DNA from: a virus
Reading direction: 5' to 3' (one strand)
IMG/VR virus record: IMGVR_UViG_3300035670_000589
Span: 1 to 38,793 of that record
DNA length: 38,793 bases
The notes below the pieces were generated by a model. The model did not search any database. It was not told the DNA's origin and saw nothing but the letters and a program-made list of their open reading frames with translations. Positions 6,436 through 29,283 of the stretch are shown here, in pieces; the first letter of the stretch is position 1; the number at the start of each line of letters is the position of its first letter. The position numbers were made by a program, and so were the translations under genes.

Positions 6436-6472
6436 GGCAAATTGTTATATTGTTGCGTAAAGGGGTAATGCC

Positions 6473-8332
6473 GTGGATGAAAATGAGCAAGTAATCGAGG
6501 AAGTGGTTGAGGAGACGGTTGAGGCCGTTGAGGAAGCCGCTGAGATTGCAGAAGAAGGCGAGCGCAAGGAAGTTATCGAGCGCCGCTCCGGTGCCTTTGA
6601 CATGGAAGTGCGCGGCGTTGACGAAAAGAAACGCACCGTCTCCATTGCTGTATCGTCGGAACTCCCCGTCGAACGCTCTTTCGGAAAAGAAATTCTCGTT
6701 CACGAGGCTGGAGCCATTGACATGGCTTTCCTCGCTTCTGGGCGTGCGCCGTTGCTCCTCGATCACGATATGGAGCGTCAAATCGGCGTTATTGAGTCTG
6801 TGGAACTTTCTGAGGACAAAGTGCTGCGAGCCAATGTCCGGTTCGGGCGCTCTGCTCTTGCTCAGGAAGTTTTTCAGGATGTTGTCGATGGTATTCGGGG
6901 GAACGTCTCCGTCGGTTATCGCGTCAACAAAATGGAGCGTTCCAAGGTGAATGGAGATGAATATCTCGTTCGCTCTTGGTCTCCCTTAGAGGTTTCCGTC
7001 GTGAGCATCCCCGCCGACCCGTCCGTCGGTGTAGGGCGTAGCGCGGCTGCCGCTGAACCCAAACCTACCGTTGAACCATCCATTCGTAAGGAGGACAAAA
7101 TGTCCGAAGTTGATCTGGACGCGGTTCGGGCCGAAGCCGCCGCTGCTGCTGCCCGTAATGCCGCTGACATTATCGCGCTTGGCGCCCGCCACAATAAGCG
7201 CGATCTCGCTGATGCCGCCATCAAGGCTGGCAAAAGCATTGAACAGTTCCGTGGTGAACTGCTCGACGTAATCGGCAACGACAAGCCGCTCGAAAACGAA
7301 AACATCGGCATGAACTCGAAAGAAATCCGCCAGTTTTCTATCGTTCGCGCTATCGCTGCTCTCGCCAACCCCGGCGACCGCCGTCTGCGTGAAGCTGCTG
7401 CATTCGAGTTTGAAGTCTCGGAAGCTGCTGCCGCTCGCTATGGCCGCACGGCTCAGGGCCTCATGGTTCCCACCGACGTTCTCGGTGTCTGGAAGCAGCG
7501 TGACCTGAATACGACGGACGACAACGAAATCGTTGCAACCAATCTGCTTGCTAACGAGTTCATTGACGTTCTGCGTAACTCGGCTTCGGTAATGCAAGCT
7601 GGCGCTCGCATGATGCCGGGCCTTGTTGGCAACGTCGCGATCCCGAAGAAAACCGCTGCTTCGACTGCTGGCTGGATCAGCCCCGAAGGTGGCGCCGCAA
7701 GCGAGTCTGAGCCGACCTTCGGCACCGTCAGCCTGACGCCCAAGACTGTTGGCGCGTTCTCTGACATGACCCGCCAGCTTATCCTCCAGTCAACCCCTGC
7801 AGTCGAAGCACTGGTTCGTGACGACCTCACGCAAGCCCTTGCTCTCGCAATTGACAAGGGCGCTCTGGAAGGTACCGGCCTATCGGGTCAGCCGACCGGC
7901 ATTCTCAGCACTGTTGGCGTCAACAAGCCCGCCAACTTTGCCGCTGCCGTGCCGACCTTTGCTGAAATGGTTGCTCTGGAAACTGCTCTTGCAGAGGACA
8001 ATGCTCTGTTCGGCAATCTGGCGTACATCACCGACGCTTCGACCTTTGGCGGCCTGAAAACCAAAGCCAAGGACGCTGGTTCGGGCATGTTCGTTCTGGA
8101 AAACGGCGAAGCCAACGGCTACAACGTGATCCGCTCGCAGCAAGCAACCGCTGGCAACGTGTACTTCGGCAACTTTGCCGACTGCATGATCGGCATGTGG
8201 GGCGGCCTCGACCTTACCGTCGATCCGTACACCGCTTCGTCGAGCGGCACCGTTCGCATTGTGGCGCTCCAGTCGGTTGACGTTGCCTTGCGCAACCCCG
8301 TCTCGTTCGCTTACAACAACGACGGCATATAA
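6473..8332 (+). CDS. Prohead protease - major capsid protein fusion (HK97 fold)
   Basis: GTG 6473 lies 6 bases after AAAGGGG. The 619-aa protein has an acidic N-terminal 40 residues, then an S78/U35-type prohead protease (H98 in LLLDHD, S146 in GNVSVGY, and E173 in PLEVSVV as likely catalytic residues). A helical scaffold-like delta region (about 210-300) follows, then an HK97-fold major capsid protein to the C-terminus (AAARYGRTAQGLMVP onward). Such fusions are known, mainly in alphaproteobacterial phages. An in-frame ATG at 7100 (residue 210), with a perfect AAGGAGG ribosome site, could make the capsid part alone; see the separate entry. Confidence 0.92.
   Translation: MDENEQVIEEVVEETVEAVEEAAEIAEEGERKEVIERRSGAFDMEVRGVDEKKRTVSIAVSSELPVERSFGKEILVHEAGAIDMAFLASGRAPLLLDHDMERQIGVIESVELSEDKVLRANVRFGRSALAQEVFQDVVDGIRGNVSVGYRVNKMERSKVNGDEYLVRSWSPLEVSVVSIPADPSVGVGRSAAAAEPKPTVEPSIRKEDKMSEVDLDAVRAEAAAAAARNAADIIALGARHNKRDLADAAIKAGKSIEQFRGELLDVIGNDKPLENENIGMNSKEIRQFSIVRAIAALANPGDRRLREAAAFEFEVSEAAAARYGRTAQGLMVPTDVLGVWKQRDLNTTDDNEIVATNLLANEFIDVLRNSASVMQAGARMMPGLVGNVAIPKKTAASTAGWISPEGGAASESEPTFGTVSLTPKTVGAFSDMTRQLILQSTPAVEALVRDDLTQALALAIDKGALEGTGLSGQPTGILSTVGVNKPANFAAAVPTFAEMVALETALAEDNALFGNLAYITDASTFGGLKTKAKDAGSGMFVLENGEANGYNVIRSQQATAGNVYFGNFADCMIGMWGGLDLTVDPYTASSSGTVRIVALQSVDVALRNPVSFAYNNDGI
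7088..7102 (+). promoter_or_regulatory. Internal ribosome binding site and in-frame start for a capsid-only product
   Basis: Within the protease-capsid gene, AAGGAGG (7088-7094) lies 5 bases before ATG 7100, in the same frame as GTG 6473 (627 bases, 209 codons). It is one of the strongest Shine-Dalgarno matches in the window and sits exactly at the junction between protease and delta/capsid regions. Initiation here would give a 410-aa delta-capsid precursor. The logic is the same as lambda C/Nu3, where an internal start makes scaffold in excess over protease. Confidence 0.75.
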
Positions 8333-8340
8333 TAGATGTT

Positions 8341-8373
8341 GGGGAGCTGGATTTGGAAGTCGTCCGGCTCCCC
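8341..8373 (+). promoter_or_regulatory. Stem-loop after the capsid gene
   Basis: GGGGAGC at 8341-8347 pairs perfectly with GCTCCCC at 8367-8373 across a 19-base loop, 8 bases after the capsid stop codon. There is no T tract, so it is more likely a transcript-stabilising or processing hairpin, or a weak attenuator, than a full terminator. High capsid mRNA stability would be the expected benefit. Confidence 0.45.
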
Positions 8374-8392
8374 GACTTCATCGGAGAAGAAT

Positions 8393-8605
8393 ATGCAGTA
8401 TAAGTGCATCCGTGGCGTGGTTACGTCGCAAGGCCCGCTCAATGCGGGTGATATTGTTTCACTCCCTGCCAATGAGGCCGTGGCGCTTATTGCCGCCAAA
8501 AAGCTTGTCATTGCAGAGGAAGAAATTCGCGTCGCAGAAGCTCCTGAGATTGAGCATCGCGATCCTGTAATGCCTAAGCGAGGCCGTCCGGCTCGTGGGC
8601 GTTAA
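8393..8605 (+). CDS. Small head protein with AT-hook-like tail, 70 aa
   Basis: ATG 8393 is preferred over the upstream in-frame ATG 8336 because GGAGAAG precedes it and the upstream 19 codons cover the post-capsid hairpin. The product starts with a beta-rich MQYKCIRGVVTSQGPLNAGDIV segment followed by LPANEAVALIAAKKLVI. This looks like a small domain (about 45 residues) of the kind often encoded after capsid genes. It ends PKRGRPARGR, a good AT-hook match. Role unknown; the position is that of lambda FI. Confidence 0.7.
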   Translation: MQYKCIRGVVTSQGPLNAGDIVSLPANEAVALIAAKKLVIAEEEIRVAEAPEIEHRDPVMPKRGRPARGR

Positions 8606-25866: not shown

Positions 25867-26202
25867 TTACGACAAAATTTTGTCAATTTCCTCTTTTGCA
25901 TGATCCGCACCGTAGCAAATAAGAACTGTATTTCCCAGCATTTGCAAATAGTTAATCCAGTCTCGTTGCTCTGGTGAAAGCTTGCCACCCTTGACCCGCT
26001 TCATCTCGATCCAGAGGTTTTTGGCTGGCACAAACAGGTCTGGCACACCTCGCGAAACGCCTTCGGCTTTTAATTTTGCTGCGGTAGCCCTCGATCTCAT
26101 ACCACCATTCGGGATGGCGAAGATGCGGACACCCTTGTATTTTTGCCTAAACCAGCGAACAACTTCGCGCTGCTCGAAATGCTCTGTTGGGATGTTTTCC
26201 AT
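25867..26202 (-). CDS. VRR-NUC domain nuclease, 111 aa
   Basis: The product matches the stand-alone phage VRR-NUC family: QREVVRWFRQKYKGVRIFAI, then PNGGMRSRATAAKLKAEGVS, then GVPDLFVPAKNLWIEMKRVK with D55, E66 and K68 as the PD-(D/E)xK catalytic set, and GKLSPEQRDWINYLQMLG. Family members cut branched or structured DNA. It overlaps the PP-loop gene by 1 bp in the leftward recombination operon and likely resolves or trims recombination intermediates. Confidence 0.9.
   Translation of the reverse strand: MENIPTEHFEQREVVRWFRQKYKGVRIFAIPNGGMRSRATAAKLKAEGVSRGVPDLFVPAKNLWIEMKRVKGGKLSPEQRDWINYLQMLGNTVLICYGADHAKEEIDKILS
25871..25884. repeat. 14-bp perfect palindrome GACAAAATTTTGTC
   Basis: It lies at the very 3' end of the VRR-NUC gene, about 45 bp from the consensus DnaA box. 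It could be a protein-binding site or a weak RNA hairpin. No T-tract follows on the minus strand. Confidence 0.4.
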
Positions 26203-27071
26203 TATACTTCACCGCACCATAAGCCACATTCGGCATCCATTTCTGGGTCATCATCAAAACATCCAGCAAACAAATCACCCTGATTGCGAACTGCCTCTAT
26301 TATGCTTTTATAGCTATAATCTTTATTAAAATTTCTTAAAGATTTCTTTGAGTTAATTTGAGTAGCATAGTCTTCAAGATCAGCCCACCACTGCAATGTA
26401 TTTGGCTTAGTTCTTTCAATCTCCATCAATTTCGCCCTGCCTTTAAGAAAACAGGCATCGCAATTGCCTTCAAAGGGCAATAGATTGAGATCAAAGTTTT
26501 GCTCCTTCCACCAATTCATAATATCGCGCTGCGTAATTTTTGCATCATATAGCGGAAAAACTGAAACCCACGGGTCTTTACCTTTTTCGTTAGATGCCAT
26601 GCCCCGCTCTACCCTATGGCGCTCATCCACGCGAAGGCCGACAACATTAGTCCATTTTTTATACCCAAGAGATTTCATAAAAAACTTCATAGGTTCAATT
26701 TTAAGTTGCGTTGTGCAGAAACGCATCACCCCGCATGGAAGATATTTCTTATCCTCAACAAGGGATATGAATGGTTCACCATTTCTGCTTGCACTATTAT
26801 AACCAACCTCTGAAAAGCGATCAGACCAGTCCTTTGCTTTGCGATCAGCCATCTCAAGCCAACGAATGCGAACGCCCCATCTAGCCTCACATTCATGGAC
26901 AAAGCGCAAAGTCTCTTCGCGTTCTTTGCCAGTGTTGGCAAAAGTTACATGCACATCATCTGGTAGTTTGCCACCATGCGCCTCAACAATTTTGTAAAGC
27001 ATGTAGCCGCTAGTGCGCCCACCACTAAAAGAAACAAGCGCGGGGCCTGTAATATGGAATGGATTTTTCAT
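26202..27071 (-). CDS. PP-loop ATPase of the PAPS reductase/DndC-like family
   Basis: ATG 27071 is preferred (TAATG overlap with the upstream stop) over an ATG eight codons earlier. The 289-aa protein has a PP-loop SFSGGRTSG at about 14-22, TFANTGKEREETLRFV, a CGVMRFCTTQLKIEPM segment and a GNCDACFLKGR cysteine pair, as in phosphoadenosine-phosphosulfate reductase-like proteins. These enzymes adenylate or transfer sulfur; relatives act in DNA phosphorothioation (DndC) and tRNA thiolation. In this phage no other dnd gene is visible, so the substrate is unknown. The Cys set suggests an Fe-S cluster or zinc. Confidence 0.82.
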   Translation of the reverse strand: MKNPFHITGPALVSFSGGRTSGYMLYKIVEAHGGKLPDDVHVTFANTGKEREETLRFVHECEARWGVRIRWLEMADRKAKDWSDRFSEVGYNSASRNGEPFISLVEDKKYLPCGVMRFCTTQLKIEPMKFFMKSLGYKKWTNVVGLRVDERHRVERGMASNEKGKDPWVSVFPLYDAKITQRDIMNWWKEQNFDLNLLPFEGNCDACFLKGRAKLMEIERTKPNTLQWWADLEDYATQINSKKSLRNFNKDYSYKSIIEAVRNQGDLFAGCFDDDPEMDAECGLWCGEV

Positions 27072-27265
27072 TAAAACGGCACCTCTTGACTCCACTTATC
27101 ACACTGCCCCTTGGTGTTAACAAATTCCACCGGCACTGTCATTTTGAAAATAAAGCACTGTCCTGTGCCAGAGTAGTGATCACAATTGTGGCAAAATTGT
27201 GGCGGCCCTGCGGTGATCCACTCTTCCCATTGCACCAGTTCAGGCGGCTTCGGTGGCCTCGACAT
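27071..27265 (-). CDS. Four-cysteine small protein, 64 aa
   Basis: It overlaps the helicase end by 26 bp and its TAA overlaps the PP-loop gene start. The product has C25-x2-C28-x8-C37-x17-C55 (QFCHNCDHYSGTGQCFIF), a small zinc or Fe-S binding fold. Being translationally linked to the PP-loop protein, it could act with it, for example as a sulfur or electron carrier, but this is inference. A similar Cys pattern occurs at 35583-35795. Confidence 0.7.
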   Translation of the reverse strand: MSRPPKPPELVQWEEWITAGPPQFCHNCDHYSGTGQCFIFKMTVPVEFVNTKGQCDKWSQEVPF

Positions 27266-28850
27266 CCCAAATCCTTTCTATCACTCGGTAAAATTTACCG
27301 TCTCGCTTGTACTTTATTTCAACTGGAATTTCCCCGTCGGTCATCCCCTTGGCAACAGACTCCAGATCAGGTTTCCCTGCCAGCGTAACGCCGCTAAGAC
27401 CTGCGAGTTCACCCAGTGACCTTAGCGCCTTGGTGCCTGCATAGCCATCGTGCAACACCGGCAAATACTCTGTGACCGAAGGATCGGATAGTGATCCGTA
27501 ATAAGTTACAGCCAGCATATCCTTACCACTGGTGCGGCTGGTATGCTTGCGCCACCACCATTTGGTAACTTCCATTGTGTTGACCGCCATGCCCATGATG
27601 TCGTCTTGGTGCAGCTTCAGCTTTTTTGCTTCTGGCTCAGGAAACGCAAAACCACAGGCATCACAGGTTCTGGCACTGATCGGCACAAGTTCATTGCAAT
27701 TGTCGCAGACTTTTACCGGCGCCTCACTCTGTCCCTCACCTTTCTTCGTGACAGACCTTGGATTAATTGCAGTGATCGGCCCGTGCTGGGCTACAACTCC
27801 AGCAAAGTCCAGTACCAAGCAGTGATCGGTATGACTTTTGACACGCATCCCGCGCCCAGCCATCTGGACGTAGAGGCTAGTACTCATCGTCGGCCTGAGC
27901 ATGGCGATGAGATCGATGTCAGGATAATCAAAGCCAGTGGTCAGCACGTTGGCGTTTGTCAGCGCCCGCAGCCTGCCAGCCTTGAAATCAGCAATAATTC
28001 GTTCGCGCTCTGCTTTTGGTGTCGACCCCACAACAAAATTTGCCGGTATCCCGTTTGCATTAAGCATATCCGAAATTGCCTCTGCGTGAGCAACACCTGA
28101 GCAAAAGAATAACCAAGCTTTGCGATCACCAGCCAGCTTTATGACTTCGCGCACAACCGCCTCATTGTTCTCAAGCGTGTTGACGGCTGCGGCTAACTCC
28201 CCCTCGACATACTCGCCGCCACGCTTGTGAACACCACTCAAGTCAAAGTGTGCCTCGGTGATCTTGCTGCGAAGAGTTGACAGGAAGCCCTTGTAAATAA
28301 GTTCCTCGATCAGCACCGGCTCCAGCAGTTCGTGGAACAGCCCGTCGCCCTCATTGATGCGGCCATGACCAAGCCTGTATGGCGTTGCAGTCAAGCCCAC
28401 CACCCGAAGGTTTGGGTTGATCTGTTTCAGGTCATTAATCAGCTTTCTATAGCCACCCTCATCTTTGTGGCTAACCAGATGACATTCATCAATTATGATC
28501 AGGTCAATATATCCAAGAAGCGTCGCCTTTGTCCGCACAGACTGGATGCCAGCAAAAGTGATTGGCTCCCCAAGCTGGCGCTTGCCAATACTGGCGGAAT
28601 AGATGCCCATTGGCGCATTTGGCCAATGCTCACGCATTTTAGCGGCGTTCTGTTCGATCAGTTCCTTGACATGCGTCAGCATCAAGATGCGCGTATTGGG
28701 CCAATTCTCCATCGCATCCTTACACAGTGCTGCGACAATATGGCTCTTACCAGACCCAGTCGGCAAGACAAGACACGGGTTCCCTTTCGGGTTGGCGCCA
28801 AACCAATCATACAACTGGCCTATGGCGCGTTTTTGATAGTCACGGAGCAT
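27240..28850 (-). CDS. SF2 DEAD/DEAH-type helicase with zinc ribbon
   Basis: ATG 28850 (MLRDYQKRAIGQLYDWF) is the natural family start; the upstream extension is shadow. The 536-aa protein shows Walker A PTGSGKS at 30-36, DECH at 121-124, TATPYR at 154-159, the helicase C-domain VLTTGFDYPDID near 302-313 and QMAGRGMR at 329-336. A zinc ribbon C382-x2-C385 / C396-x2-C399 follows, then a C-terminal OB-like extension. This is the usual phage replication/recombination DEAD-box helicase, unwinding forks or branched DNA. Confidence 0.93.
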   Translation of the reverse strand: MLRDYQKRAIGQLYDWFGANPKGNPCLVLPTGSGKSHIVAALCKDAMENWPNTRILMLTHVKELIEQNAAKMREHWPNAPMGIYSASIGKRQLGEPITFAGIQSVRTKATLLGYIDLIIIDECHLVSHKDEGGYRKLINDLKQINPNLRVVGLTATPYRLGHGRINEGDGLFHELLEPVLIEELIYKGFLSTLRSKITEAHFDLSGVHKRGGEYVEGELAAAVNTLENNEAVVREVIKLAGDRKAWLFFCSGVAHAEAISDMLNANGIPANFVVGSTPKAERERIIADFKAGRLRALTNANVLTTGFDYPDIDLIAMLRPTMSTSLYVQMAGRGMRVKSHTDHCLVLDFAGVVAQHGPITAINPRSVTKKGEGQSEAPVKVCDNCNELVPISARTCDACGFAFPEPEAKKLKLHQDDIMGMAVNTMEVTKWWWRKHTSRTSGKDMLAVTYYGSLSDPSVTEYLPVLHDGYAGTKALRSLGELAGLSGVTLAGKPDLESVAKGMTDGEIPVEIKYKRDGKFYRVIERIWDVEATEAA

Positions 28851-29283
28851 TATATTTCTCAACAGGTTTAAACCAATTAATGGGTAGGTGAACGACAGGC
28901 TCGATGTCGCCGTCGCGACCACGGGCCGCATTCCCGCCGACGGTGTATTCAAGCTTCGCACCCAGCGCACCATACACACTGACGAAATGTAGATCGGCAT
29001 CGATCCACTTTACAAATAGCAATGAGTTAAGCCCGCTGTCACCGGAAAGCTGTACAAGCTTTGACCACTTATCAGCAGAGAGAATTAGTGTCGGAAAGGC
29101 GTCCTTTTTTACGCTGCGATATTTGAACTCGCCCCAGCAGGCCATGCCCCTCTTATTGGAAAGCGCCCAATCAACCCTGTATTTTATTTCACCAAGCTTG
29201 GTGCAAAAAAGCCCCCAGCGTTCATGGATAATTTGAGCAGCTTCCTTTTCTTTCTCCAGATCGGAGTCGCTTTCGTATCTCAT
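28840..29283 (-). CDS. Possible PD-(D/E)xK nuclease, 147 aa
   Basis: ATG 29283 overlaps the upstream stop (ATGA). Residues 34-56 read KYRVDWALSNKRGMACWGEF followed by KYR, giving D38-x13-E52-x-K54. This is the D...ExK spacing of restriction-endonuclease-fold nucleases, with helices before (EAAQIIHERWGLF) and strands after. The rest is beta-rich (LNSLLFVKWIDADLHFVSVY). The assignment rests on this motif alone. The position between a Cas4/RecB-like exonuclease and the helicase supports a nucleic-acid role. Confidence 0.55.
   Translation of the reverse strand: MRYESDSDLEKEKEAAQIIHERWGLFCTKLGEIKYRVDWALSNKRGMACWGEFKYRSVKKDAFPTLILSADKWSKLVQLSGDSGLNSLLFVKWIDADLHFVSVYGALGAKLEYTVGGNAARGRDGDIEPVVHLPINWFKPVEKYNAP

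Follow-up and report, generated by a model that had tools for sequence, protein, structure and literature searches.

The virus record IMGVR_UViG_3300035670_000589, whose 38,793 bases make up the stretch of DNA analysed here (the window), carries a head gene in which a prohead protease, a scaffold and a major capsid protein are joined in one open frame, from GTG6473 to TAA8332. This raises the question of how capsid subunits are supplied in excess of the protease when both are encoded as a single protein. From sequence comparison it is highly likely that two starts are used on one mRNA. Most of the protein made would then be a 410-aa capsid precursor, and a minority product, the complete fusion, would carry the protease into the prohead.

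In the 619-aa fusion, Pfam places Peptidase_S78 at residues 80–185, above the cut-off, and Phage_capsid at residues 359–613. The phrog_617 profile (major head protein) gives a full-length match over residues 45–615 with 510 bits. The NCBIfam profile NF045541, for a protease/capsid fusion, reaches only 156.7 bits, over residues 49–326, and thus stays below its cut-off of 525 bits. An AlphaFold2 model made with 42 aligned homologues has a mean pLDDT of 78.5 and a pTM of 0.52, and its best solved match by Foldseek is the R4C capsid, 8gta_A (E 2.7e-21), followed by the GTA, phiXacJX1, D3 and HK97 capsids. The R4C capsid chain (PDB 8gta, 268 aa) aligns from residue 353 of the window fusion, which is in line with a maturation cut that would fall somewhere in the second low-confidence break of the model, at residues 341–361. 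In the protease domain, His98 is present in 123 of 124 representatives of the homologous fusions and Ser146 in all 124; we take these two to be the catalytic residues of the S78 protease.

The stretch between the VGxGR motif of the protease and the scaffold helices shows low conservation among homologues. The sequence-only reading had placed an internal start at the boundary between the protease and the delta/capsid regions, and the Pfam domains, the linker at residues 192–211 and a first scaffold helix at residue 215 bear out this position. Because the scaffold and the HK97 fold both lie 3′ of Met 210, a product begun there would have the layout of HK97 gp5. Coordinates are listed in the table.

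Table. Features of the fusion gene and its surroundings, in window coordinates
Feature	Position	Strand	Basis
Protease-scaffold-capsid fusion gene, 619 aa from GTG6473	6473..8332	+	Open frame, Pfam S78 and Phage_capsid, phrog_617
Weak SD-like AAGGGG 5′ of the fusion GTG, 4-nt match to the SD consensus	6460..6465	+	Sequence
S78 prohead protease domain, residues 47–191	6611..7045	+	Pfam, AlphaFold2 model
Stretch of unusually low synonymous diversity, 5′ of the internal RBS, window clade	7040..7078	+	Codons -21 to -6
Predicted disordered linker, residues 192–211, holding internal Met 210	7046..7105	+	pLDDT <50
Internal Shine-Dalgarno (SD) sequence TAAGGAGG	7087..7094	+	Sequence; AAGGAGG at 7088–7094
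Putative internal start, in-frame ATG, residue 210	7100..7102	+	Sequence; ATG in 74/74 distinct window-clade genes
Predicted separate capsid precursor, 410 aa (scaffold and HK97-fold capsid)	7100..8332	+	Frame, domain layout, separate capsid genes (445 and 447 aa) in two more distant relatives
Helical scaffold (delta) domain, residues 215–340	7115..7492	+	Model: helices 215 to 342
Predicted maturation cleavage zone, residues 341–361	7493..7555	+	Second low-confidence break in the model
HK97-fold capsid domain	7556..8329	+	Foldseek best solved match 8gta_A
Strong 15-bp GC-rich RNA hairpin directly 3′ of the capsid stop, without a T-run	8335..8379	+	-30.1 kcal/mol in 50 nt

At the nucleotide level, the element TAAGGAGG is separated from the internal ATG by the spacer ACAAA (7095–7099). 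The AAGGAGG with its five-base spacing, an ATG at 7100 in frame with GTG6473..TAA8332, and a remaining product of 410 aa are all found as first described. The SD match is 8 nt long, which is longer than at any of 27 plus-strand ORF starts hand-picked from a mechanical, uncurated ORF list. AAGGAGG occurs once on both strands of the 38,793 bases, where 3.96 copies are expected from shuffled sequences, and AAGGAGG-N4-8-ATG likewise occurs once, with 0.26 expected anywhere and in any frame. Since 24 of 100 shuffles contain at least one copy of the latter, the bare motif is weak evidence; what makes the site notable is where it lies, and not simply how rare it is. The N-terminal start of the fusion differs between relatives, and it is uncertain that GTG6473 is the true one.

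Conservation of the site was followed in 316 loci from viral contigs, bacterial genomes, named phages and the window itself, in sets drawn from the best 80 of 126, the best 80 of 287 and the best 80 of 508 relatives. Twelve loci (fragments, the frameshifted L079, the split L232 and capsid-only loci) were left out. The other 304 are full-length fusions, which fall into 124 groups at 80% identity and 68 groups at 60%. The first linker ATG is defined as the first ATG after the protease VGxGR motif, and an SD match was counted when it lay at the proper distance.

An SD match of at least 4, 5 or 6 nt precedes the first linker ATG in 92, 51 and 23 of the 124 representatives, respectively. For matches of at least 5 nt, the control counts are 6/231 at other linker ATGs, 59/1714 at in-frame ATGs elsewhere and 12/364 at out-of-frame linker ATGs; among the groups at 60% identity they are found at the first linker ATG in 27 of 68, versus 25 of 839 elsewhere. 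Fisher tests on the representatives ignore the relatedness among them. When linker codons are permuted, matches of at least 4, 5 and 6 nt are expected in 19.5, 5.3 and 1.4 of the 124; random synonymous recoding that keeps the protein gives 55.9, 28.4 and 12.9, and the excess beyond the encoded amino acids is only about 1.8-fold. The recoding control is conservative, since selection may act on the protein sequence itself for its ability to encode an SD. The mere presence of a linker ATG was dropped as evidence: all 124 representatives have one, and 116 would be expected to by Met frequency. In 18 of the 124 representatives every linker ATG is without an SD of 4 nt or more, and one cluster of 28 genes at 50% is represented by an SD-less gene, from cyanophage S-LBS1. 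A lack of SD/ATG conservation in homologues had been set beforehand as an outcome that speaks against the internal start. The test was run, and the pair proved to be conserved in the S78 family, and also in fusions of the ClpP type described below.

At the codon level, the ATG and AAGGA are invariant in all 74 distinct genes of the window clade. The Lys codon within the SD is AAG in 74/74, with no parsimony changes on a tree from the capsid part, while the Lys codon just before it (34 AAA, 34 AAG) has undergone 13 changes, more than any other of the 15 conserved Lys columns; two further columns of the 15 are likewise without change. The codon after the SD Lys is GAA, GAG, GAC or GAT across the clade, which indicates that nucleotides are kept, and not the residue.

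In each of the three largest clades, every gene has the linker Met (74/74, 34/34 and 62/62), and normalised synonymous diversity reaches its minimum for the gene either just 5′ of this residue, over it, or over it and beyond. For the window clade, the best diversity window overlapping the Met is only in 48th place among 461. Members of the 62-gene clade, in which the invariant Met mostly has no SD, are among the 18 representatives that lack one. In the large clade with few SDs (L106 group), 54% of 140 neighbouring ORFs have an SD match of 4 nt or more, and thus a host that does not use SDs is not a sufficient account of their absence there. Around Alexa (L083), in a clade of 8 distinct genes, 7 have the Met, and synonymous diversity is not lowered at it.

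The sequence 5′ of the first linker ATG is A-rich and has G in 73% at position -9; this base pattern is unlike that at other in-frame ATGs and looks like that of a ribosome binding site. The first linker ATG is also predicted to be easier to open, with a median opening energy of 5.66 versus 8.95 kcal/mol (124 versus 1631 sites). All 74 genes of the window clade have an internal SD of 5 nt or more; the best possible N-terminal start has 5 or 6 nt in 22/74. In the window itself, a 100-nt fold at the site is no better than shuffles (z 0.28), and Rfam and tRNA scans of the whole window gave no matches.

A second family of fusions was approached with the NF045541 profile, which in 274 genomes matches in 24, none over the cut-off. 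Among six such loci analysed as ORFs, a fusion-like frame is found in L325, L327 and L328; L326 and L332 have no frame passing the length filter, and L329 has spurious-looking frames only. L325 as a query returned one relative only. The fusions found in this way join a ClpP-type protease to a Mu gpT-like capsid part, domain names that rest on PMC6536676, on section 2.5 of PMC8508860, on the names in phage records and on a reading of the sequences. The ClpP-type set, from the best 80 of 221 relatives, has 83 loci, of which 80 are full-length (three were dropped), in 56 groups at 80%. An SD of at least 5 nt is found at the first linker ATG in 22 of 56, versus 20/1023 elsewhere and 2/127 out of frame. 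At 60% clustering the 5-nt counts are 8/23 at the first and 6/37 at other linker ATGs, a difference that is not significant (p 0.09). The junction ATG is preceded by AGGAG in phages MD8, JBD68 and F10, and by a 4-nt match in mEp213. It is thus probable that the two-start arrangement originated, or has been retained, in two lineages of fusions. A third type of fusion is perhaps present in locus L328, where a long open frame (1–2421) seems to include a gpT-like capsid part; an ATG that follows AGGAG in this frame would give a 506-aa product.

The same genes could instead make only the full-length fusion, with one protease per capsid protein, autocleavage freeing the capsid and the SD-like sequences arising as a by-product of a Lys/Glu-rich linker. 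Phage annotation is of this kind: of 145 phage records that match the fusion, 60 were listed, and in each of the 19 annotated records examined the match falls in one long gene, for the most part annotated as major capsid protein. AAGGA is a frequent outcome of KE-rich linkers, as the 28.4 of 124 expected under synonymous recoding attest, and cleavage of HK97-type capsid proteins happens anyway. A by-product of composition, however, does not account for SDs in excess of both recoding and permutation, for an invariant AAG that adjoins a freely changing Lys codon, for a G peak and an accessibility specific to the position of the first linker ATG, or for the recurrence of the signal in ClpP-type fusions, and production of the fusion alone is accordingly unlikely.

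The diversity minimum of the window clade (codons -21 to -6) is 5′ of the SD, and this would suit a junction block that is mainly another nucleotide signal, such as an RNA processing site, an internal promoter or a pause, with initiation secondary. This explanation is very improbable, as a consensus search found no sigma-70-like promoter at the junction, no consensus RNA stem was found over the low-diversity block in the window clade, and the diversity minimum of two further clades covers the Met or lies 3′ of it. It is hardly credible, finally, that the SD-ATG is an unused relic of protease and capsid genes that were formerly separate, in the order of HK97 gp4/gp5. Two more distant relatives, L232 (1120–3087) and L236 (220–2559), do have separate genes in the same order, encoding 198- and 320-aa proteases and 445- and 447-aa capsid proteins. 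Against a relic are the full-length fusions in 304 of 316 loci over a wide divergence, and an SD that is still under synonymous constraint, old fusions included.

With two starts in use, the weak upstream start would give a minority protease-scaffold-capsid fusion, and the strong internal SD-ATG would presumably give the 410-aa scaffold-capsid precursor as the majority product. Through the shared scaffold and capsid parts, the fusion would co-assemble as a minority subunit and bring the protease into the prohead, where the enzyme would remove linkers and scaffold, leaving shells of ~268-residue capsid domains. The retention of His98 and Ser146 indicates that the full-length product is needed too. 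The HK97 prohead has about 60 proteases per 415 capsid proteins and that of D3 about 90 proteases for 540 (PMC12749128), and the R4C virion contains 415 copies of the product of its homologous fusion gene (PMC10276861). By the HK97 figures the fusion need not be very rare, about one in seven, which corrects the initial argument of few proteases against hundreds of capsid subunits. A pair of starts on one mRNA would provide such a proportion. It is likely, if less so than two starts at the window locus, that two ribosome binding sites set the ratio of enzyme to capsid in at least two fusion lineages (S78 and ClpP-like), with the fusion serving as the vehicle of the protease.

Lambda C/Nu3 is a head gene with an N-terminal protease in which initiation inside the frame gives a shorter C-terminal product, as proposed here, and the shared domain carries the enzyme in. 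The window gene too is a head gene with an N-terminal protease, here Peptidase_S78. Lambda has a separate capsid gene, E, whereas in the window the capsid domain (359–613) is in the same frame as the S78 protease. In herpesvirus UL26/UL26.5, a protease is fused to the scaffold and an abundant shorter in-frame product is made; UL26.5 differs from the window in its separate transcript, in having no internal RBS, and in a product that is scaffold and not capsid. That the lambda protease and scaffold share one gene is noted in section 2.5 of PMC8508860. The likeness to C/Nu3 drawn in the sequence-only reading holds for the proposed mechanism but not for the product, which here would be scaffold and capsid, the equivalent of HK97 gp5, and not scaffold alone.

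HK97 gp4/gp5 and the window share an S78-type protease followed by a scaffold-capsid precursor, with an HK97-fold capsid behind an N-terminal scaffold, and the internal product would have the gp5-type layout; HK97 has two separate genes, the window one frame with two candidate starts. MD8, F10, JBD68 and mEp213 resemble the window in that protease, scaffold and capsid are in one gene (PMC8508860, section 2.5), but differ in their ClpP-type protease and Mu gpT-like capsid part. Homologous fusions with 36–39% identity to the window protein are those of Dinoroseobacter phage R4C (ORF006) and Rhodobacter phage RcRhea. The junction of R4C ORF006 reads cggaggacgcaATG, and the solved R4C capsid chain is its C-terminal 268 aa. 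A term search of the R4C structure paper (PMC10276861) returns no mention of a protease.

Strong hairpins after the stop codon, as in the window, are found in 100 of 121 representatives, versus 38 of 121 in-gene control stretches, and some have terminator-like T-runs; 3 of the 124 representatives were left out of this count, with fewer than 110 nt after the stop. The hairpin is in line with a strongly expressed unit, and it may protect the capsid mRNA or lower downstream transcription. The mechanical ORF that follows (8336–8605) begins inside the hairpin, and ATG 8393, with GGAGAAG before it, is a better-looking start for the next gene. Elsewhere in the window, minus-strand genes at 26202–29000 encode a PAPS-reductase-like protein and a ResIII/DEAD helicase.

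Protease-capsid fusions have been described in the RcC phages (PMC8601537), in Paracoccus prophages (PMC6536676) and in MD8 (PMC8508860, section 2.5). The last-named section does not propose an internal start, and no proposal of an internal capsid start in such a fusion was found in the literature covered, outside which most subscription papers fall. The fusion itself is thus known. The mechanism that, judging from the sequence comparisons, is very probably at work is C/Nu3-like, with a capsid precursor in place of the scaffold. Two starts would resolve the stoichiometry puzzle that the published descriptions of these fusions, as far as covered, leave open. If this is correct, the abundant protein would lack roughly the first 200 residues of the annotated product, a point of relevance to proteomics, structural work and capsid-based taxonomy, and many capsid proteins of 600–700 aa in the databases would be misannotated minority forms.
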